This document shows, in pieces, positions 19,352 to 26,338 of a stretch of DNA of 37,729 bases. This stretch comes from a virus. The translations under genes and the position numbers were made by a program. Positions within the stretch are counted from its first letter, which is position 1; each line of letters opens with the position of its first letter. The DNA lies in the IMG/VR virus record IMGVR_UViG_3300046170_000122, positions 1-37,729 of that record; one strand, 5' to 3'. The notes below the pieces were generated by a model. That model worked only from the letters and a program-made list of their open reading frames with translations. It ran no database searches and was not told the origin of the DNA.

Positions 19352-19548
19352 TGTTTATTTTTATTGTTAATTCGTCTCGCTAATTCAGCCGGATCGTAAT
19401 CTGGCGCTGCCGCGAGACATGGGCAGTCTGAAGTATTTCTAACGCAATAAGAAAAGGTCGCGCCTGGTTCATATCTGAAGCGGGGGTATCCGTCGCATTT
19501 AACGCAGGGCTTTAACGAAGCATAAGCCTCCCTGATCTCTCTATCCAT
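19348..19548 (-). CDS. Small zinc-ribbon protein (Lar-like)
   Basis: 66 residues with four paired cysteines: CVKC at the front and a later YCVRNTSDCPCL cluster, then a helix with DYDPAELARRIN. This layout, a small ribbon followed by a short helix that usually carries A(I/L)xxWN, resembles the Lar-type restriction-alleviation or generic phage zinc-ribbon proteins. It overlaps its upstream neighbour by 8 bases and its downstream neighbour by 4. Binding partner unknown; nucleic acid is likely. Confidence 0.6.
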   Translation of the reverse strand: MDREIREAYASLKPCVKCDGYPRFRYEPGATFSYCVRNTSDCPCLAAAPDYDPAELARRINNKNKQ

Positions 19549-20596
19549 TCTTAATATGATGAGTTAATCGCGCAACTTGTCCATCAGAATTGTGATGAAT
19601 AAAGGCTTCAACGCACCTTGGGACTCCCACGTATCCTTTCTTGTGATGCCAGCTATCAGTGCCGGATGGCGATCTAATATGCTCAGCCGTCACTCCTATA
19701 TAATCTTTCGCAGATTGCCATCTGGTCACGGATCGATGGTGCAGGTGATGTAAATAAATCGTCCTGTGCTTGGTAGCTGCCCACATCTCTGGCTCTTCTT
19801 GGGCCATGAGCAATGGCGTATCTGCCAGTTTCGCTCCATCCCCGTGGCTAAATCCGAGCATATTTGATCCGAATCTGACGTATTTACGATGATTGACCGA
19901 TATGTCAAATGTGACGTTTTTGCTTTTTCGGAAATAAGCTTTGAGCGTTTGGGCGAGCATCCAACCCGCGACGTAATCGTGATTACTGGGGCAATGAATT
20001 ACCGTGACATTAGCGTAAGGCAGCAGCCTCTCAATCGCCCTGACCATAAGATCTTTGCATTGGATGAAAGACTGCCACCAGAGACCATCCATGTCTTGAG
20101 GCGTTCCGGCTGTCGTGACTGGGCGCTGGCTGTCAATATGTAGACAATCGTTACCGATCACCATATAAACCTGGTCGATCTCCCAGCCTTGCGACATCCG
20201 CAGCAAGTCATCAATCCCGCGATCCACGCAGGCTACAGCCTCTCTTACGTTGTAGTTACTGCCCGTCTCTTCCTCAACCGCCAGCTTTCCAACGTGGATG
20301 TCCGATGGATCAAGTATTAGGCAGTGGGCATCTTTGATTTTCTTGCGTTTGAACGCTTTGAACTTTGGCGAGTATTTCCTGAGATCGGCCAGAACCGGCT
20401 CAAATAGCTCATCTAGGCTAAGGTTCTCAGCTTTGGAGAAAAGGCTGATGCGCTTTGATTTATACCAGAAATGCTTAACCGAGCTTGGCGATATGCCGGC
20501 CTCATCGCACTCTTCCATAAGCGCTGTCATTGCGCCGCCGGATCTCAGGCGTTTTAACACCTGCATCTCATCTTCGGTTAATCTTGGTCTAGGCAT
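19541..20596 (-). CDS. Calcineurin-like metallophosphoesterase
   Basis: Start placed at ATG 20596 (MPRPRLTEDEMQVLKRLRSG), 351 residues; this overlaps the DnaA-like gene by 8 bases. Residues about 1-60 look like a helix-turn-helix region (GISPSSVKHFWYKSKRI). The catalytic domain shows the metal-binding series: DPSDIHVGKLA (DxH), VIGNDCLH (a GNDxxH form of GDxxD/H), CPSNHDYV (NHD), FSHGDGAK and YLHHLHHRS (HxH). It should hydrolyse a phosphodiester, perhaps DNA ends or a nucleotide. SbcD/Mre11-like proteins share the motif set but are larger. Its place between the DnaA-like gene and the single-strand binding protein suggests a DNA-processing role. Confidence 0.82.
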   Translation of the reverse strand: MPRPRLTEDEMQVLKRLRSGGAMTALMEECDEAGISPSSVKHFWYKSKRISLFSKAENLSLDELFEPVLADLRKYSPKFKAFKRKKIKDAHCLILDPSDIHVGKLAVEEETGSNYNVREAVACVDRGIDDLLRMSQGWEIDQVYMVIGNDCLHIDSQRPVTTAGTPQDMDGLWWQSFIQCKDLMVRAIERLLPYANVTVIHCPSNHDYVAGWMLAQTLKAYFRKSKNVTFDISVNHRKYVRFGSNMLGFSHGDGAKLADTPLLMAQEEPEMWAATKHRTIYLHHLHHRSVTRWQSAKDYIGVTAEHIRSPSGTDSWHHKKGYVGVPRCVEAFIHHNSDGQVARLTHHIKNG

Positions 20597-20858
20597 GAGT
20601 AAGTTCCATAATGTTAATATGTCCAAACCTTTTAGTGGCATGGAGGACAGTCCCGTGGTCTCTCTTTCTAAAGATTTCTGCTATCTTTGTTGTTGAAAAT
20701 GTTGTGTGTCTTCTAATTAACGCCATCGCAATCATGCGCGGGTGAGCTATTCTGTTAGTTCGCGTATTGCTTAAGATTTCTTTACTAGTCAAGCTATATT
20801 TATCGCAGACACAATGTATGATGGCTGTCGCGGTATCGATATTTTCCTGATCGCTCAT
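20589..20858 (-). CDS. Stand-alone DnaA domain IV protein
   Basis: 89 residues that consist almost only of the DnaA C-terminal DNA-binding domain: KYSLTSKEILSNTRTNRIAH, PRMIAMALIRRHT, and the signature IFRKRDHGTVLHATKRF (consensus FGxRDHxTVxxA). The basic loop and the RDH segment that read the TTATCCACA box are kept. DnaA's AAA+ domain III is absent, but the gene is joined by a four-base overlap to a DnaC-like AAA+ ATPase. It may target the helicase loader to DnaA-box-like sites or compete with host DnaA. A box-like site, TTGTCCACA, lies in the initiator gene (21700-21708). Strong family call; role inferred. Confidence 0.9.
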   Translation of the reverse strand: MSDQENIDTATAIIHCVCDKYSLTSKEILSNTRTNRIAHPRMIAMALIRRHTTFSTTKIAEIFRKRDHGTVLHATKRFGHINIMELTHA

Positions 20859-21424
20859 TTGTTTCGGTAAGATTTCCAGTTACAATTGACCACTCCACCA
20901 GTCTCTTCGGCTCTTGACCAAATAGATCTTCCGACCGCTGCCGCTGCCTCATTCGGTTTGTGATTCGTAATGATGACGGTCGCTAAAAGGTTGTCGTAGC
21001 GATGGTCAATAAGGTTAGTTAGCGTTCTCTGCTCCCAATCAGTTCCTGCTAGCTCGGACCATTCGTCCAAAATAAGCAGTGACACTTTCTTGGCCTGCTG
21101 GAGAGTCTCGCGGGCTTTTCCTTTTAACTGCCTATCATCTTCAAACTGTTGTTTAATTATTCCTAACAGGTCGTGAGTCTTAAAATATCGACTTCCTTGG
21201 TCACGCTTAGCTGCCATCTCAGCCCATTTGGTCGCTATCTGAGTTTTACCTGGCCCACGATCGCCGCATAAAATTAGCAAACAATCACCGCCTATTACTC
21301 GCTCCTCAAGCTCCAGCGCTTTCCCTAGCCCATCGCCGTGCATCTGCATTAAATTAGCGATGTGGCGAGATGGGAATCCCCATTTTGCTAGCCAAGTTTT
21401 TATTTCATTATAGTTCAGCGACAT
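20855..21424 (-). CDS. DnaC-like helicase loader ATPase
   Basis: 189 residues. Walker A is GDRGPGKT (54-61), Walker B LLILDEW (about 113-119), sensor 1 ATVIITNH, and the C-terminal SRAEETGG carries the arginine of sensor 2, the order found in DnaC/DnaI-type loaders. The N-terminal 45 residues form a short helical part (IKTWLAKWGFPSRHI) and there is no zinc-binding site. It should load the host replicative helicase onto the phage origin, recruited by the initiator protein encoded just upstream (17-base overlap). The phage encodes no helicase, so host DnaB is the likely partner. Confidence 0.88.
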   Translation of the reverse strand: MSLNYNEIKTWLAKWGFPSRHIANLMQMHGDGLGKALELEERVIGGDCLLILCGDRGPGKTQIATKWAEMAAKRDQGSRYFKTHDLLGIIKQQFEDDRQLKGKARETLQQAKKVSLLILDEWSELAGTDWEQRTLTNLIDHRYDNLLATVIITNHKPNEAAAAVGRSIWSRAEETGGVVNCNWKSYRNK

Positions 21425-22169
21425 AGATTCCGTCTCCTTCCGTGTTTCTTTCTGGCAAGTCCTGCCATCTCATTCTTTTGATCCAAAGGTGAAGACCCTG
21501 CTGGTATTCTCCATTTTCTTTAGTCCAGTGATCGCACTGCTTCCAAGCTTCAATCGCGGCCAGTAGCTCGTCTAGCGTAGGCCGCTCTGGTTTTTTGATC
21601 TTTTTCCATTCATCCCAAACCTGTTTCTTTGATGATCGTTGTCTGGATAGTTTTGGAGCTAATTCCCATAATTGAGATAAAATCTGTTTATCGTCCACTT
21701 GTGGACAAAAAACTTCTCCTTCTCCTTCTTCTTCTCCTTCTCCTTCTCCTTTAACAATTCCAGAATTATCTGGCACGGAGGTGGCAGGAGGGTGGCACGG
21801 AGGTGGCACGGAGGTGGCAGATTGTTGATTTATCAATGAAATCCAGCCCACTTCTTTTAGGTTCTCAATGACCTGCCAGTCATCTGCCACTTCCATGCGG
21901 GTTATCTCCCAGATGTCTGCCACTTCCATGCCACTCCCATCCGAGTTACGAAATTCACCGCTCGCTCGTGTCTCCTTTGAGTAAGTGGCCATCACCTGAC
22001 AAAGTGCTTGGAAAACCCCAAACGCCACTATGCCGTCCTTCCCTTTCCTCATTAGTCGTCTGTATCCGCGAGAATCGCAGCCCGATGGGGATAAAAACCA
22101 GCCAAGTCTCTGTCTCTTTCTTGTGTCAGCATTCTCAAATAGCTGAGACCATTTATTAATCTTAATCAT
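21408..22169 (-). CDS. Replication initiator (O-like), carries the likely origin
   Basis: Start at ATG 22169, overlapping the previous stop as ATGA; 253 residues. The N-terminal about 115 residues form a winged-helix region (INKWSQLFENADTRKRQRL, then CDSRGYRRLMRKGKDGIVAF) typical of phage replisome-organiser proteins that bind origin repeats. A low-complexity linker follows, proline-rich (SATSVPPPCHPPATSVPDN) and then glycine/glutamate-rich (KGEGEGEEEGEGEV). The C-terminal part (SQLWELAPKLSRQ, later HLWIKRMRWQDL) probably contacts the loader. The DNA behind the first half and linker consists of 11-bp repeats in two opposite blocks (21771-21825, 21874-21939), as in lambda O where the origin lies inside the gene. 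Confidence 0.8.
   Translation of the reverse strand: MIKINKWSQLFENADTRKRQRLGWFLSPSGCDSRGYRRLMRKGKDGIVAFGVFQALCQVMATYSKETRASGEFRNSDGSGMEVADIWEITRMEVADDWQVIENLKEVGWISLINQQSATSVPPPCHPPATSVPDNSGIVKGEGEGEEEGEGEVFCPQVDDKQILSQLWELAPKLSRQRSSKKQVWDEWKKIKKPERPTLDELLAAIEAWKQCDHWTKENGEYQQGLHLWIKRMRWQDLPERNTEGDGIYVAEL
21693..21708. promoter_or_regulatory. Inverted repeat with DnaA-box-like sequence
   Basis: GTCCACTTGTGGAC (21693-21706) is a perfect inverted repeat with a two-base centre. TGTGGACAA (21700-21708) matches the DnaA box TGTGGATAA at eight of nine positions. It lies 60 bases from the iteron array inside the initiator gene and could be the site for host DnaA or for the phage's own DnaA domain IV protein. 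Confidence 0.4.
21713..21752. repeat. 40-base polypyrimidine/polypurine tract
   Basis: An uninterrupted run of C and T on the plus strand built from CTTCTC and CTC units, encoding the GE-rich linker of the initiator on the minus strand. Such tracts can slip, and can form triplex or unwound DNA. It lies between the DnaA-box-like repeat and the iterons. Confidence 0.75.
21771..21825. repeat. Iteron block A (five 11-bp units), likely origin
   Basis: Units start at 21771, 21782, 21793, 21804 and 21815 on the plus strand: TGGCACGGAGG, TGGCAGGAGGG, TGGCACGGAGG, TGGCACGGAGG, TGGCAGATTGT. TGGCA recurs every 11 bases, one helical turn, which would place bound proteins on one face. Because 11 is not a multiple of three, the repeat is not explained by repeating codons. 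Confidence 0.75.
21874..21939. repeat. Iteron block B (six 11-bp units, opposite orientation)
   Basis: Plus-strand units at 21874, 21885, 21896, 21907, 21918 and 21929 begin TGCCA, TGCCA, TGCGG, TCCCA, TGCCA and TGCCA, the reverse complement of the TGGCA core of block A. All keep the 11-base phase, including the two degenerate central units. TCTGCCACTTCCATGC is exact at 21883-21898 and 21916-21931. The encoded protein shows the repeat as MEVAD twice, 11 residues apart. Confidence 0.7.
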
Positions 22170-22471
22170 TTTGTGTTTTGTGTTTTCGCGATCTCCGCCA
22201 GCATCTGGCCGGCGTTGTGGACCACGCATATTTGACCTTTCCAGGTCGAGTGCAGCTCCTGTTGAGCTTTAGTTAATTTACGGGCGCTGGGAGGCTTGGA
22301 GCCGTCCTTTATCTCAAAAAGGTAGTTAAACCCATTTAAGCCCACGAGGATGTCAGGAATGCCTCTTCCCGCGCCCGATAAATCAAATACGCTAGCCTCG
22401 GGCAGAAGCTCCTTAAACTCCGCAACCACTTCTGAGTGATTGGCGTCCACCCGTTTGGCGTAGCGTGTCAT
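22166..22471 (-). CDS. VRR-NUC-type nuclease
   Basis: 101 residues with the virus-type replication-repair nuclease layout: a front helix (HSEVVAEFKELLPEA), then AGRGIPDILVGLNGFNYLFE with IKDG following. The PD and the ExK form the PD-(D/E)xK metal site. The downstream KPPSARKLTKAQQELHSTW block is very typical of small phage members. These cut branched or flapped DNA and act like Holliday-junction resolvases. Start and stop both overlap neighbours by four bases. It lies next to the exonuclease/annealing pair, suggesting joint work in recombination. Confidence 0.88.
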   Translation of the reverse strand: MTRYAKRVDANHSEVVAEFKELLPEASVFDLSGAGRGIPDILVGLNGFNYLFEIKDGSKPPSARKLTKAQQELHSTWKGQICVVHNAGQMLAEIAKTQNTK

Positions 22472-22770
22472 ACTGTTTCAATAATGTTTGCTAGATCTTT
22501 AGCGTAAGGCGTAGGGTAAATCCTAATCTTCCTCGGCTCGCCAAACTTTGTCGATTTTATCAGCTCCTTGCGAAGAAGGTTCTTTTTAACAAGATGGCTA
22601 ACAGCAGTGTTAATACATCCACGGGTCGTTCCGATTACCGCAGCTAAATCTTCTGTTGAGATACCAGGTTCGCAGACTGTCGCTAAAACCAAAGACTTTC
22701 GGTAATATGTTGAAACACCTGCTCGCCTCCACCTTTCGGATTCAACTAGGTTTTTCATTGCAATAGTCAT
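22468..22770 (-). CDS. Winged-helix DNA-binding protein
   Basis: 100 residues with a MarR-like winged helix: the helix-turn-helix ISTEDLAAVIGTTRGCINTAVSHL followed by the wing LLRKELIKSTKFGEPRKIRIY. (The two recognised parts lie at about residues 37-60 and 66-86.) It has a good ribosome site (AGGTGG) nine bases before its ATG and overlaps the exonuclease stop as ATGA. It may regulate the early operon or act with the recombination proteins. No ligand pocket is evident. Confidence 0.72.
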   Translation of the reverse strand: MTIAMKNLVESERWRRAGVSTYYRKSLVLATVCEPGISTEDLAAVIGTTRGCINTAVSHLVKKNLLRKELIKSTKFGEPRKIRIYPTPYAKDLANIIETV

Positions 22771-23408
22771 CGAATTACCACCTTTCCGAACAAAGCTTCT
22801 TTTACGTTTTTGGAAATTTCTCGGTATTCTGGGATGAAATCATCCTGAGCGCGTGAGACTACTTCCGTAAACTCGTCAGCTTTGACTTTAACAATTAAAG
22901 GATTTACTCCACGGTAATAACTCATAAACCACCACGTCTTGATTCCCGTGATAGCCATGCTCCAATGCACCTGTATTTTGTATTTTTTAGGCAAAACTCC
23001 TTGAATTAAATAATCGGTGTGTTCATCAATTCGGGGAGATTTTATTTCTAAGCCCATAGTGTATTCACCATTTTCATCCATAATCAATCCATCAGGGCTG
23101 CATCCGATAATCTTATCGTCACGGGTAACAAACCCAACCTCAGTGACCTGGTAGCCCATCATTGACTCAAAAAGCTCTCTGGCTGGGCCTTCATTTTCAT
23201 GACCCCTATCAGTGTCAGCGTTCCCCATAAATTTATAAGGATCATCAGCATAACATTCTCTCGCAATTTGCTGAGCATACTTTAACCTGCTAGCTGATAG
23301 CTTACCGGTAGGAGTCAGGATATTACTAGCCTGAGAAGCCGTAGCCCGTCCAAGTCTAACTTTCTCCCAAGCTTCCGAGCCTTGTTTAATGTCGTCATGC
23401 ACGATCAT
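22767..23408 (-). CDS. YqaJ/lambda-exonuclease-type recombination nuclease
   Basis: 213 residues. Characteristic blocks are SEAWEKVRLGRATASQASNI, GHENEGPARELFESM, the catalytic GCSPDGLI (Asp) and GLEIKSP (ExK), and the final KYKIQVHWSMAITG helix. It degrades one strand of double-stranded DNA from ends so that the adjacent annealing protein can pair the product. The best ribosome site of the early operon (AGGAGGT, seven bases before ATG) lies in the end of the annealing-protein gene, so the two are coupled. Confidence 0.92.
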   Translation of the reverse strand: MIVHDDIKQGSEAWEKVRLGRATASQASNILTPTGKLSASRLKYAQQIARECYADDPYKFMGNADTDRGHENEGPARELFESMMGYQVTEVGFVTRDDKIIGCSPDGLIMDENGEYTMGLEIKSPRIDEHTDYLIQGVLPKKYKIQVHWSMAITGIKTWWFMSYYRGVNPLIVKVKADEFTEVVSRAQDDFIPEYREISKNVKEALFGKVVIR

Positions 23409-24055
23409 TTAGTTACCTCCTGACTAAAAAGATCTTCTGTATCAGGCTCGCTCTCGGTCTCAACAATATCCTCAAAAGGATTTACCGCAATTTCTCGTAT
23501 TCCTGTAACCGGCTTGACCGGCGTTACGTCACGGAACCCAGCGATGTCGCGTCCTTCATCTTCATCATGGATACCGCCAAACCCAAAGGCTACGCGCCCA
23601 CATTGAATGATCGATTTCCATTTAAGCATCCGGCGAGGATGTTGTTTCCAAGGCTCAGTGTTTCTCTTGACCTCTTCTAGGTATTCCCGATGCGTGGTAG
23701 GATGCTCACGATCCTTCCGGTGTATCTTGATTTCACACCAAGACCCATCCTCGGCCCACTCCTCGCTCATCCCGTTCATTTGCGGATGGTCGTTAATAAT
23801 CCGAAGCCAGCCGTCAATAGAGACGATTGGAACAATTTCACCGCCCTTACCAGGAAAAGCGTAAAGCTCTTTGAGTAAAGGGTTTAAGCCGTAGGTATTA
23901 GCTACGATCACAAGGCTAGCAAACTGCTCATCGTTCTTGCAGCTCTTAAAAGCTGTAGCCTTTAAAATCTCAGCAGTGCGTTTTGAATTGCTGCCCAATC
24001 GCTCTGCAAGCTCTTGTAAAGCATTGCCCTTCTTTTGTTGTGTTATTTCGTTCAT
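23405..24055 (-). CDS. Bet/RecT-type single-strand annealing protein
   Basis: 216 residues with the Bet-type core: KNDEQFASLVIVANTYGLNP, LLKELYAFPGKGGEIVP, IVSIDGWLRIINDHPQMNG, and the RMLKWKSIIQCGRVAFGFG block that precedes the C-terminal tail. The tail is acidic (TESEPDTEDLF), as in proteins that contact a partner nuclease or SSB. It anneals complementary single strands and pairs with the YqaJ nuclease encoded next (four-base overlap). Together with the VRR-NUC nuclease and the single-strand binding protein this makes a full recombination module. Confidence 0.93.
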   Translation of the reverse strand: MNEITQQKKGNALQELAERLGSNSKRTAEILKATAFKSCKNDEQFASLVIVANTYGLNPLLKELYAFPGKGGEIVPIVSIDGWLRIINDHPQMNGMSEEWAEDGSWCEIKIHRKDREHPTTHREYLEEVKRNTEPWKQHPRRMLKWKSIIQCGRVAFGFGGIHDEDEGRDIAGFRDVTPVKPVTGIREIAVNPFEDIVETESEPDTEDLFSQEVTK

Positions 24056-24059
24056 GTCG

Positions 24060-24257
24060 TTAAATGGAATATTTTGAAACGTGTTTTCCGTTCACGCTTA
24101 TTCGCTCTGATTTTACTGGATGCCCATCGCGGCGTAGGTCTAAAACCCTTGCGGCAAGACGGGTGCATCCAAATTTTTTAAATGCCCCAAGTGTAGTGAG
24201 GCTTCCACCGTTTTCTAAATGCGCTAATATCTGACGCTTTTGTGTTTTGGTTTTCAT
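24060..24257 (-). CDS. Small helix-turn-helix protein
   Basis: 65 basic residues: QKRQILAHLENGGSLTTLGA, FKKFGCTRLAARVLDLRRDG, then a wing KSERISVNGKHVSKYSI. This GxLTxxxAxxxFGxxRLAARIxDLRxxG pattern is a common phage helix-turn-helix family next to recombination genes. Likely a DNA-binding regulator or accessory factor. Overlaps the previous gene by four bases. Confidence 0.75.
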   Translation of the reverse strand: MKTKTQKRQILAHLENGGSLTTLGAFKKFGCTRLAARVLDLRRDGHPVKSERISVNGKHVSKYSI

Positions 24258-24445
24258 AGTCCAAGGTTCTTTCTAGCTTGCGCGTAGGCGGCTTCTCGCG
24301 CCGCTTTGTATTCCTGGCTCTCATTAGCCCTGATTCGGGCCACTCCAGCTTCTATGGCGTCCCAGCGCTCACTAGGAGCGTATCTGGCTTTTCGTTCCTC
24401 GTCTTTAATAAGCGCGGCCTTTTTACTCTCTTCGTAAATGTCCAT
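24254..24445 (-). CDS. Small charged helical protein
   Basis: 63 residues, almost entirely charged helix (ESKKAALIKDEERKARYAPS, then AREAAYAQARKNLGL), no hydrophobic core visible. AAGGA precedes the ATG by eight bases. Shares one base with the previous stop and overlaps the next gene by four. No family recognised. Confidence 0.65.
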   Translation of the reverse strand: MDIYEESKKAALIKDEERKARYAPSERWDAIEAGVARIRANESQEYKAAREAAYAQARKNLGL

Positions 24446-24702
24446 TAGTATGTCCTTTGTTTTGCGTTTAAAGCAATGTTGATTGCCTCAATTCTTTCAG
24501 CGACCTCGTATTCGCTCAACTCGTAATATCCGCCGATCAAAAGCTCCTTAATTTCAAGAAGCTCAAAATTCGGACGAAGATACAGCTTGTGAGCCATCTC
24601 TTGAATTCTAGCCTTCTCAACTGCTCGCGAGCTAGCAAACACCCACATAACGAGCGTGGAAAGACTAAGAAAGATCGCAGCTCCAATCATAAGCTCTTTC
24701 AT
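24445..24702 (-). CDS. Small N-terminally anchored membrane protein
   Basis: 85 residues with one N-terminal membrane segment (LMIGAAIFLSLSTLVMWVFA, about residues 4-23), then a charged helical part (AVEKARIQEMAHKLYL, EYEVAERIEAINIALN). A good ribosome site, AGGAG, lies eight bases upstream inside the end of the ribbon-helix-helix gene. Possibly an early inner-membrane protein; it could act in superinfection exclusion, but there is no direct evidence. Confidence 0.7.
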   Translation of the reverse strand: MKELMIGAAIFLSLSTLVMWVFASSRAVEKARIQEMAHKLYLRPNFELLEIKELLIGGYYELSEYEVAERIEAINIALNAKQRTY

Positions 24703-24827
24703 TTTCTGGCTCCTTTTAATGCTTTGCTAAGCAGGTTCTGGACTAAGTCTTTAAGGCTTACTCCCTTTGTAACGGCAAGCACCTTAAGTGCCTGATGTGT
24801 CTCTTGGTCAACTTGTATTAGTTTCAT
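24699..24827 (-). CDS. Ribbon-helix-helix protein (42 residues)
   Basis: ATG 24827 to TGA 24699. The sequence is a strand with alternating residues (MKLIQVDQETHQALKVLAV) followed by two helices around a turn (TKGVSLKDLVQNLLSKAL, KGARK), the minimal Arc/CopG-type fold: the strand residues at positions 2-6 would enter the DNA groove in a dimer. It is the first gene of the early operon, right after the control region 24828-24918, and joins the next gene by ATGA. The likely role is autoregulation of the early operon. It has no clear ribosome site (AAAAAAATG). Short but convincing from fold pattern and position. Confidence 0.72.
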   Translation of the reverse strand: MKLIQVDQETHQALKVLAVTKGVSLKDLVQNLLSKALKGARK

Positions 24828-24918
24828 TTTTTTAGGTCAGCCTTGCGCTGATAAATGAAACGTAGTCAAAAATAGAACCGAGTCAAATAAATTTCTTAAA
24901 TTATTTTAATTTCGTGTT
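24828..24918 (-). promoter_or_regulatory. Early control region with repeated TTTGACT
   Basis: This 91-base, AT-rich gap separates the end of the lysis cassette from the first early gene. On the minus strand TTTGACT occurs at 24887-24881 and 24870-24864, 17 bases apart, each followed by a similar G-TTC string, so the pair may be operator half-sites or overlapping -35 elements (TTGACT). No good -10 stands out (TATTTT and TTATCA are nearby). A small hairpin, TCAGC-GCAAG-GCTGA, lies in the leader. No GC-rich terminator for the late operon is visible here. Confidence 0.4.
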
Positions 24919-25524
24919 TTACGCCAAGTAATCAACTAGAGCATCGCAGTAGATCTGAGCTAGCTCTGACTCCATGCCGTCAAATAAAACCCACTCCTTG
25001 GCATTGCTAGCAAAAAACGGCTCCAGTATAGCGGCAGGTGGCTTTGTCTTTGATAAGAACCTGTAACCTCTACCTCCTTGGCTAATCGCCTTAACGCCTC
25101 TATCCTTCTGACCTGGCACAACCTCCGAGTGGATTTTACGAAATGCCTCTGCTAATTTCTGTCCTTCTTTACTTCCGGCGCAATACAGATATTCAAACCC
25201 GTTAGCACTAGGACTATGACAATTAAAATGAAGTTCAATCACGCAATCAAACCCCCAAGATTGTTCAGCTAAATACGAGCAGGATTTGTGATAGCTTTTA
25301 AATGGAGTCTCGGAAATAACTGTTGATGATATAGAACGCTCTGTAAGCTTCTCTCGTAGCTTTTCAGCCACGTATTGATTATAAGCCCACTCACTGACGT
25401 TGCCTCGGCTCACAGCGCCTTTATCGCCCATTCTAGAGTGGCCCACACAAATCAATACCTTCTTGATCCTCGGCTTTGGTTTGCGCGAGAAAATAGCTAT
25501 TAGCTTTTCAAATATTGATTTCAT
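24919..25524 (-). CDS. N-acetylmuramoyl-L-alanine amidase (endolysin)
   Basis: 201 residues. After a basic N terminus with a short hydrophobic stretch, the Amidase_3-like fold shows KVLICVGHSRMGDKG (first zinc His), a middle SEWAYNQYVAEKLREKL helix, CVIELHFNCHSPSANGFEY (second His, with the family HxN pattern) and AAILEPFFASN (catalytic/zinc-side Glu). It cuts the bond between sugar and peptide in the cell wall at lysis. It is the last gene of the late operon and overlaps the lipoprotein gene by four bases. There is no separate cell-wall-binding domain and no clear signal peptide, so export would depend on the holin. Confidence 0.85.
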   Translation of the reverse strand: MKSIFEKLIAIFSRKPKPRIKKVLICVGHSRMGDKGAVSRGNVSEWAYNQYVAEKLREKLTERSISSTVISETPFKSYHKSCSYLAEQSWGFDCVIELHFNCHSPSANGFEYLYCAGSKEGQKLAEAFRKIHSEVVPGQKDRGVKAISQGGRGYRFLSKTKPPAAILEPFFASNAKEWVLFDGMESELAQIYCDALVDYLA

Positions 25525-25754
25525 TTCTGTCCGGTAATTAATGCACGTTGCCAGACATATTGACTATAATACTTCTGGCCTCTACCGATCATCGAAACCT
25601 CTTGAAATGTATAAAGCCGGCCATCAGTCAGAGTTATCACCGGAGGATCGAAGCTGCTCGCGTTTAATTCTTTTTGAGAGCCGTTCAATCCGCAAGACGG
25701 AAGCAGCATCACCAACGCTAGCCAGCTTATCAATTTCGTCTTCCAGGTCATCAA
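25521..25754 (-). CDS. Small lipoprotein (outer spanin candidate)
   Basis: 77 residues with a clear lipoprotein signal: basic start (MMTWKTK), hydrophobic stretch (LISWLALVMLLPS) and lipobox LPSC with Cys21. The mature part of 57 residues is polar. Its first 131 bases overlap the coiled-coil membrane gene (25624-25824) in another frame, the embedded arrangement known from Rz/Rz1 spanin pairs. A spanin implies a host with an outer membrane. The mature region lacks the proline-rich segment of lambda Rz1, so the call is by lipobox, size and position. Confidence 0.6.
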   Translation of the reverse strand: MMTWKTKLISWLALVMLLPSCGLNGSQKELNASSFDPPVITLTDGRLYTFQEVSMIGRGQKYYSQYVWQRALITGQK

Positions 25755-25824
25755 TATATCTCCTCAGTTTTAAGTTTGTATAAGCGACATAGGCTTGAAG
25801 CGCTGCTGTCAAAAGCTTCATCAT
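25624..25824 (-). CDS. Small coiled-coil membrane protein in the lysis cassette
   Basis: 66 residues: a moderately hydrophobic N terminus (MMKLLTAALQAYVAYTNLKL) and then a charged helix (RRYIDDLEDEIDKLASVGD, RIERLSKRIKREQL). Similar short proteins with DEIxxLA...KLRIExLxxR occur beside phage spanin genes, as I recall. It starts directly at the end of the holin candidate (TGATG) and half of it overlaps the lipoprotein gene. It might be a very short inner spanin, but typical inner spanins are over 100 residues, so the role stays open. Confidence 0.5.
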   Translation of the reverse strand: MMKLLTAALQAYVAYTNLKLRRYIDDLEDEIDKLASVGDAASVLRIERLSKRIKREQLRSSGDNSD

Positions 25825-25997
25825 TCGCCTTTTTTAAACCTCCGCCATTGGTTTATCAAAGAAAGTATTCCGATTAGCAGGGCTATGACCGCCGAAATAA
25901 ATCCAACAGCCATTTCAAAGTAGTCAAAATAGGCCGAGATCGCTGACCATGAGCTGGCTATCATTCCTGTGATCGGGTGTGTTAAATGGTTATTCAT
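25821..25997 (-). CDS. Holin candidate (58 residues)
   Basis: ATG 25997 to TGA 25821. The N-terminal half is amphipathic (TGMIASSWSAISAYFDYFEM), followed by one membrane helix (AVGFISAVIALLIGILSLIN) and a basic end (QWRRFKKGE). Single-segment holins with a basic tail, such as T7 gp17.5, look like this. It opens the lysis cassette: holin, coiled-coil protein, lipoprotein, amidase, all overlapping. The start overlaps the previous stop (TAATG). Position and topology are the basis; no family motif. Confidence 0.65.
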   Translation of the reverse strand: MNNHLTHPITGMIASSWSAISAYFDYFEMAVGFISAVIALLIGILSLINQWRRFKKGE

Positions 25998-26338
25998 TAT
26001 TCTAGCTCACTTTGTGGCTCAGGCTTGATCGCCAGGAACTCTAACTGAGTAAGCTCTTGGACACCCTCGGCATCTTCAAGCATCGCGTCATCGTTAGCGG
26101 TGAATCTCCAGCAGTCGATGGCTATTAGTCGTCCACTACCATCAGTAGCTTCAGCCAGGTTAGCCACAGGTGGTAGTCCGGTAAGTGTTGTGCCTTGTTT
26201 GTTCGGATAGCCCCTGTCAGAGTCTACGGCTGCAACAAGTCCCGTGTAGAGTTCGTCGGGCTGAACAACATAGTATCGAAACCCTGTATCAGCGCGGGAT
26301 TGCTCAATGTCTGTGAGTGGTTCTTGTTGTTCGTCCAT
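25997..26338 (-). CDS. Small tail-associated protein, copy 2
   Basis: 113 acidic residues. It shares a pattern with the preceding gene (26338-26673): FRYYVVQPDELYTGLVAA, then RGYPNKQGTTLTGLPP. The pattern R(F/Y)(F/Y)...Y..L..A....RG.P...GT is common in small phage proteins encoded after tail-fibre genes and thought to assist fibre assembly or cap the fibre. It shares one base with its neighbour at each end. Function inferred from position and similarity. Confidence 0.6.
   Translation of the reverse strand: MDEQQEPLTDIEQSRADTGFRYYVVQPDELYTGLVAAVDSDRGYPNKQGTTLTGLPPVANLAEATDGSGRLIAIDCWRFTANDDAMLEDAEGVQELTQLEFLAIKPEPQSELE

Follow-up and report, generated by a model that had tools for sequence, protein, structure and literature searches.

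The question raised by this locus is whether two blocks of short, regularly spaced repeats inside a phage gene are the place at which replication of the phage starts. The stretch analysed, referred to as the window and as W in the family comparisons, is the virus record IMGVR_UViG_3300046170_000122 with its full length of 37,729 bases. Comparison of sequences makes it highly probable in our view that the repeats are a phage theta-type origin lying within the gene for its own initiator. The gene in question and its downstream neighbour are:

21408-22169, minus strand: initiator (O-like) gene, 253 amino acids, start corrected to 22169
20855-21424, minus strand: DnaC-like helicase loader (phrog_50, E 1.1e-26; IstB_IS21, E 1.3e-11)

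The original prediction had described the protein as an O-like initiator. This was borne out by the position of the gene, since the DnaC-like loader is the next gene downstream and overlaps its 3' end, and by a weak match of the C-terminus to phrog_9474 (replication initiation, E 0.0023). A YqaJ/RecE-type exonuclease and a RecT/Bet-type annealing protein are encoded farther upstream. The gene start had been placed at 22229, which had to be corrected: a close relative (L010, 4397-5215) has an in-frame stop at codon 5 of this longer reading, and the alignments of distant homologues begin at the methionine encoded at 22169, showing that 22169 is the start. The start codon overlaps the stop of the upstream gene (ATGA).

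Database searches with the initiator gave few matches. Pfam yielded no useful match (a single meaningless row, E 0.032), NCBIfam none at E up to 0.01 (lambda O itself reaches 132.6 bits with TIGR01610), and a profile search against PDB sequences a single row with E 0.26; phrog_2509, the YdaU-type family discussed below, was absent from the matches. A search of a phage collection returned one weak match (E 7e-3), and the same search with the homologue L074 returned 24 records, with mostly C-terminal similarity among the 21 matches listed. A single relative was found in a species-genome collection, on a contig in an Opitutia MAG. The host may accordingly be verrucomicrobial, although the binning of a virus contig into a MAG is weak evidence.

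The repeats and the elements around them are arranged as follows:

21874-21933, minus strand: iteron block B (first in the gene), TGCCA on the plus strand, TGGCA on the coding strand
21820-21873, no strand assigned: spacer between the blocks, 54 bp, 63% A+T, inner box centres 59 bp apart
21771-21819, minus strand: iteron block A (second in the gene), TGGCA on the plus strand, TGCCA on the coding strand
21713-21752, minus strand: polypurine tract, 40 nt, all pyrimidine on the plus strand, all purine on the coding strand
21640-21710, no strand assigned: AT-rich DNA of low stability beyond the tract, from duplex-stability windows

Block A consists of five exact TGGCA boxes (21771, 21782, 21793, 21804 and 21815) in a step of 11 bp. 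Block B has exact TGCCA boxes at 21874, 21885, 21918 and 21929 in the same step and two degenerate boxes, TGCGG at 21896 (two mismatches) and TCCCA at 21907 (one mismatch). On recheck, every box position listed in the original prediction and the 11-base step proved correct. Inspection of the 11-mers by eye showed that the unit is 11 bp long with one unsymmetrical core and is not an inverted repeat of about 19 bp. Read along the coding strand, a TGGCA block is followed by the 54-bp spacer, a TGCCA block and then the 40-nt (GGAGAA)n-like polypurine tract.

A periodicity of this kind could be a by-product of coding, arising from the repetitive Pro/Ala/Thr composition of the linker and from duplication of a MEVAD motif. 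Block A, which encodes residues 117-133 in the disordered linker, indeed specifies an 11-residue repeat (ATSVPPPCHPP / ATSV), and two copies of MEVAD lie 33 nt from each other. We nevertheless consider this explanation very improbable, since neither 11 nor 22 nt is a whole number of codons and the repeats are in large excess over synonymous shuffles: six exact same-orientation 11-bp pairs are present, whereas 5000 shuffles average 0.46 and never exceed 4 (0/5000 reach six). Block B encodes residues 79-99 and lies over a predicted helix-turn-helix (helices 83-90 and 97-106), outside the low-complexity linker. In addition, the homologous YdaU and epsilon15 proteins described below carry their first cluster at different codons (near nt 150 vs nt 55). 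Within the whole window, exact 11-bp pairs are confined to 21771-21804, 21874 and 21918. When the 34 ORFs picked as likely genes out of 106 were compared (criterion: at most 2/200 shuffles at lag 11), a clear excess at this lag was found in the initiator only (0/200), the next ORF having 3/200.

The 40-base polypurine tract that had been predicted near the blocks was found beside the second block. It encodes a Gly-Glu-rich linker, its length differs between close relatives, and we propose it as an unwinding or strand-capture element. Beyond it, the 50-bp windows starting at 21640 and 21660 belong to the least stable 3-5% of the window. The AT-rich stretch separating the blocks, noted in the original prediction, is present and is one candidate for a weak duplex; as the only unwinding site it is not preferred, the purine tract and the AT-rich DNA following it being the closer parallel to lambda. 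An inverted repeat, GTCCAC-TT-GTGGAC, is located at 21693-21706 and is retained in the close family. A DnaA-box reading of 21693-21708, which had been offered as origin evidence, was dropped, since matches to TTATCCACA with at most one mismatch are at chance level in the window (8 vs 6.96 expected). GC skew, suggested as a further way to locate the origin, did not mark the site: the skew is negative across most of the window, and the cumulative curve has no turn at 21.8 kb, its closest local minimum being at about 26 kb.

We compared homologous initiator genes with respect to the 11-bp period. Eleven close relatives (88-100% identity) were found; ten of them span and keep both blocks, with some boxes changed, and the partial L012 has the second block only. 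The synonymous rate in the two blocks (0.085 and 0.095) is lower than the gene mean of 0.125, a difference that is not significant (ranks 64/253 and 87/257). Synonymous changes are absent from the polypurine tract in the close family and likewise from codons 1-30 of the long reading, a stretch shared in part with the upstream gene. Synonymous conservation in the close family was set aside as support, being weak and, in the blocks, not significant.

An alignment search for the wider family yielded 24 loci, which were dereplicated to nine representatives including the window; L062 and L064 lie on the same contigs as L016 and L029, which had first been found by a pattern scan. The other eight proteins are 32-46% identical to the window protein. 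In the pooled nine genes, exact 5-mer repeats at lag 11 number 124, compared to 19.7 expected from synonymous shuffles (0/300), and the harmonics are elevated as well, with 68 vs 13.2 at lag 22 (z 12.5) and 63 vs 26.4 at lag 33 (z 6.3), every other lag remaining at z 3.1 or below. These excesses at lags 11, 22 and 33 are those of helically phased direct repeats, as in iteron plasmid origins. Taken singly, the window gene, L062, L064, L070, L071 and L074 exceed all 300 shuffles at lag 11, and L073 equals the shuffle maximum. The expectation that the 11-bp phase persists despite protein divergence thus held for most of the nine; the strict step is missing from L066 (0 vs 0.8) and L069 (4 vs 1.6). 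In these two, the linker boxes allow a reading in which steps of 10 and 11 bp alternate (21 bp per two), and the best lag in L066 is 21. As a control we used 53 neighbouring genes (from 58 loci tried), which gave 70 vs 43.3 at lag 11 (z 3.6) and 36 vs 41.8 at lag 22, with 2/53 individually significant. The initiator families are well above the neighbouring genes, and the control is not entirely flat.

The head-to-head layout of the blocks is less constant. The first block is opposed to the second in the window, L062 and L064, L074 has opposed boxes, and opposed clusters are also present in YdaU-type and epsilon15-type genes; L070-L073, on the other hand, have both blocks in one orientation. 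The layout seen in the original prediction is therefore real and not fixed, and is, judged from these alignments, lineage-specific. The centres of the inner boxes are 59 bp apart in the window, 49 in L062 and 38 or 48 in L064 (hand arithmetic), which are roughly whole-turn steps. One of the nine, L069 (2938-3930), is a chimera in which a window-type N-domain and TGCC cores are combined with a Gly-Gln repeat linker and a C-domain like that of the YdaU-type L034. The iteron core in L069 thus follows the N-terminal domain.

The strongest evidence for an origin comes, as far as sequences can tell, from a natural exchange of the initiator gene. A search based on the loader detected five contigs (L034, L040, L041, L042 and L050) that encode a different initiator protein, which is of the YdaU type (phrog_2509, E 1.3e-54). 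Three of them, L034, L042 and L050, were compared to window positions 19501-26000, and in each the alignment has a gap from 22169, the start codon, to 21446:

21446-22169, minus strand: replaced segment, between the alignment ends of L034, L042 and L050 aligned to the window

The two flanks are 98.5% and 99.3% identical to the window in L034, 98.9% and 91.5% in L050, and 88.0% and 88.8% in L042. The proteins encoded between them are different: a BLASTP comparison of the window initiator with the YdaU-type initiator rises above noise in the last 11 residues only, and hhalign against the YdaU-type family profiles gave a probability of 1.5%, no match. The L034-type gene has boxes of its own, TAACG/CGTTA with spacings of 11 and 12 bp; they form two opposed clusters, and a purine run follows just after the second. 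Pairs of TAACG/CGTTA at 11 or 12 bp are absent from the window, and pairs of TGGCA/TGCCA at 11 bp are absent from the 6.6 kb covered in L034, L042 and L050. Since the two types of array are mutually exclusive in the DNA compared and the flanks near-identical in L034, origin specificity seems to have been exchanged together with the initiator gene. Both types were also observed in one metagenome, 3300046170, which contains the contigs _000169 (YdaU type) and _000202 (window type).

Phased repeats are likewise a component of centromeres and packaging sites, and the arrays could accordingly serve partition, packaging (pac/cos) or some other DNA recognition instead of initiation. The exchange argues against this, as the arrays were replaced with the initiator while the L034 flanks stay 98-99% identical, and neither a partition nor a terminase gene was detected among the nine window proteins scanned around the initiator. 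We regard such a function as a very distant prospect, and an origin inside the initiator gene remains the preferred interpretation.

Next to the window family, arrays with a step of about one helical turn were found in further initiator genes. For the YdaU type, 80 of 273 loci found were kept, 45 read and 19 retained after dereplication; the first 450 nt were analysed with the tract unmasked. The 19 genes show an excess at lags 10, 11, 12, 15, 23 and 33 (lag 11: 71 vs 14.9), of which lags 10 and 15 probably reflect a period-5 purine tract, and 7/19 are individually at or below 2/200 shuffles at lag 11. TAACG/CGTTA is the best core in 14 of the 17 genes inspected, mostly near nt 150-200 and nt 345-405; L124 has GTCAC boxes in its place. 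Xanthomonas phage CP2 has boxes of the YdaU type and a lag-11 excess (4 vs 0.6, 3/300), and Rac ydaU has boxes at 12- and 23-bp steps without excess at lag 11. In L085 (2001-2816), a YdaU-type gene, an 8-residue insertion is located at the first iteron cluster, in the helix-turn-helix part, and is apparently made up of two extra repeat units (24 nt).

Epsilon15-type genes were represented by the best 80 of at least 586 loci, five after dereplication. All five are significant at lag 11 (60 vs 9.7; lag 10: 51 vs 5.5). The epsilon15 protein is a divergent YdaU-family member (hhalign probability 99.8%), and the two were therefore counted as one family, giving three unrelated families in all. The core in the epsilon15 branch is TCCGC/GCGGA and the first cluster is at nt 55-112, compared to near nt 150 in the YdaU type; core and position can thus change inside one protein family. 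Altogether, the genes of this family (Rac ydaU, CP2 and epsilon15; phrog_2509) resemble the window in having two in-gene clusters with boxes about one helical turn apart, often opposed, and differ from it in the protein, which is unrelated by profile, in their cores (TAACG/CGTTA or TCCGC/GCGGA) and in using both 11- and 12-bp steps.

The third family is DUF1376, for which L028, from the pattern scan, was used as query (80 of 102 loci, 43 after dereplication, tract unmasked). The 43 representatives have 295 vs 82.4 repeats at lag 11 and 215 vs 61.9 at lag 22, and the excess is as large or larger at multiples of 6 and 7, where it accompanies the simple tract; 10/43 are individually at or below 2/200 at lag 11. 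Their cores vary (CAACG, TAACG, GTTCA, ACCCA, GGCAT and others) and are mostly in tandem in the 13 genes inspected. Comparison of DUF1376, as the single sequence L028, with the profiles of the other two families gave probabilities of 3.6% and 2.3%; with profiles this shallow, the families may nevertheless share a fold. Strong period-6 and period-7 simple repeats, for instance CCAACA and AACCAAT, were observed beside the 11-bp arrays of DUF1376 representatives (L241-L320). Among the titles and abstract openings listed from the open-access PMC literature, no description of 11-bp in-gene iterons in YdaU, epsilon15 or DUF1376 genes was found.

The association of array and tract was examined in two ways. 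In the first test, the single best 11-bp stretch of each gene was taken and a tract was counted if it started -5 to 60 nt after it. Arrays were significant in 7/9 genes of the window family, 2/19 of the YdaU type, 2/5 of the epsilon15 type and 18/43 of DUF1376, and a tract followed in 4 of the 7 (0.6 expected) and 16 of the 18 (1.6 expected) for the window family and DUF1376, respectively, and in 0/2 and 0/2 for YdaU and epsilon15. In these last two types the best stretch was block 1, or the tract finder picked a place elsewhere. The second test, devised after the sequences had been seen, asked for a purine run of at least 10 whose start lies -3 to 15 nt beyond the final second-cluster box. 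Such a run is present in 15 of the 18 YdaU genes with such a box (0.7 expected) and in all five epsilon15 genes (0.3 expected); L101, L107 and L127 lack it, and L124 has no such box.

These comparisons bear on a further explanation, in which the boxes are an operator, the protein mainly represses its own gene and replication starts elsewhere. It is common for wHTH proteins to act as repressors, and transcription can be roadblocked by arrays inside a gene. What makes this improbable, if somewhat less so than the two alternatives discussed above, is that the arrays recur in the initiator genes of three sequence-unrelated families, that a strand-asymmetric simple-repeat tract lies beside them, as is described for the lambda origin (PMC5043065), and that in lambda, SPP1 and pSK41 the origin is located at the corresponding place (PMC7466680, PMC6316719, PMC5703833). 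We therefore retain the view that the window repeats are an origin.

A broader proposal can be made tentatively; we put its chances somewhat below even. The at least three unrelated initiator families (window, YdaU/epsilon15 and DUF1376) would share one convergent plan of an in-gene origin: iterons with a single core about one helical turn apart, often in two blocks, the core differing from lineage to lineage and even inside one family, followed nearby by a strand-asymmetric linker-codon repeat of period 5 to 7. The DnaA-trio is the comparison for this simple-repeat tract, which would be its phage counterpart and would be captured single-stranded by an initiator oligomer, and initiator and origin would move as one specificity cassette. 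That one plan might recur with changing cores across three families is what gives the locus its interest, as a proposal drawn from comparison. Counting YdaU and epsilon15 as one family lowers the number of families, which is offset by the change of core inside that family. In-gene origins are known from a few model systems. A signature made up of a simple-repeat tract and iterons with one core, spaced by about 11 bp, marks candidate origins in families whose annotation goes no further than 'replication protein', 'primosomal protein' or DUF1376, and it offers a rule for finding origins in uncultured phages. The swap between 98-99% identical flanks is a ready-made genetic experiment tying iteron specificity to the initiator, and it becomes testable how an origin core changes within a coding sequence without loss of the protein and how phages exchange replication specificity.

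Among characterised systems, lambda is the parallel that the original prediction had drawn. In lambda as in the window, the iterons occupy a central part of the initiator gene and a purine-asymmetric A+T region comes after them, and lambda P, the helicase-recruiting product of the next gene, has its counterpart in the DnaC-like loader. When lambda O was analysed as a yardstick, its annotated iterons were recovered at lags 20, 23 and 44 together with an 18-nt purine run downstream. Nearly all purines of the lambda A+T region are reported to be on one strand, and lambda iterons to bind O dimers, whereas plasmid iterons are helically phased and bind monomers (PMC5043065). The lambda iterons are described as 19-bp imperfect inverted repeats (PMC7466680). 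They start 20-24 bp apart, in contrast to the 11-bp unit with one 5-bp core in the window, where, unlike in lambda, there are two blocks, one of them within the HTH-coding part. The parallel applies to the in-gene repeats, the tract and the downstream loader and does not extend to the protein: by the tests made the window initiator is outside the O family, showing no match to the O N-terminal model (TIGR01610, phage_O_Nterm) and having iterons of a different form.

A further comparison is with the staphylococcal plasmid pSK41, where the N-domain of Rep binds four Rep boxes that are central in its own rep gene, in the part coding for the linker, and where the pPR9 chimera represents a natural exchange of about 500 bp comprising N-domain and origin (PMC5703833). 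That exchange resembles the swap between the window and L034. pSK41 (RepA_N) is a plasmid and not a phage, and the profile search of PDB sequences gave the window initiator no sequence match to such a protein. In SPP1, oriL is described as lying inside gene 38, with direct repeats bound by gp38 and an AT-rich unwinding element, and loader (gp39) and helicase (gp40) are separate proteins (PMC6316719). The in-gene repeats and AT-rich element are like those of the window, the likeness being one of description, and SPP1 has a second origin, oriR. For some mycobacteriophages an origin upstream of or inside repA has been suggested, no repeats being found there (PMC7157519).

The AlphaFold2 model of the window initiator, based on 12 sequences, has a mean pLDDT of 60 and thus low confidence, with residues 31-110 mostly at 76-89 and residues 116-176 below 50. 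The helices 83-90 and 97-106 and a short strand follow each other in a winged-helix-like order, and the predicted architecture is an N-terminal winged-helix-like domain, a disordered linker and a C-terminal domain. Foldseek with this model gave no significant match. A VIA second-look alignment of the low-confidence model, with nine rows at Z of at least 2, placed wHTH-type rows first (5kbj with Z 6.0, CAP with 4.2). The best row, 5kbj, is a Rep-DNA complex, presumably of a RepA_N protein, and aligns over 89 residues with an rmsd of 4.3; this likeness may reflect just the common wHTH arrangement, a Z of 6.0 being within that range. The model of a YdaU-type protein (pLDDT 69) retrieved mostly wHTH regulators and other winged-helix proteins as best Foldseek rows, with E 0.16 or worse.

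By analogy, the best reading is that the origin would work like lambda ori and the pSK41 origin within rep, using short single-core iterons. The N-terminal domain of the initiator would bind each 11-bp box on one face of the helix, and both blocks would be joined in one nucleoprotein complex across the 54-bp spacer. The resulting strain would open the purine/AT-rich tract beside the linker block. There, one of the strands of the simple repeat may be held by the initiator, whose C-terminal domain would then hand over to the DnaC-like loader with host DnaB.

The motif pattern scan mentioned above returned 21 stretches. Since such a scan is biased to the motif, the family counts rest on the protein-based fetches. 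Arrays in L013 and L022 have no link to an initiator ORF, and the one in L021 is in a long repetitive ORF. In L020 (782-862), L025 (11362-11442) and L026 (11940-12020), an initiator-like ORF contains many TGGCA/TGCCA boxes, which are followed by a CCAAA-type simple repeat. Dense opposed GTGGCAC/GTGCCAC boxes are present in L032 (5701-5777), in a stretch without a clear initiator gene, and are possibly the same kind of origin located outside a gene.
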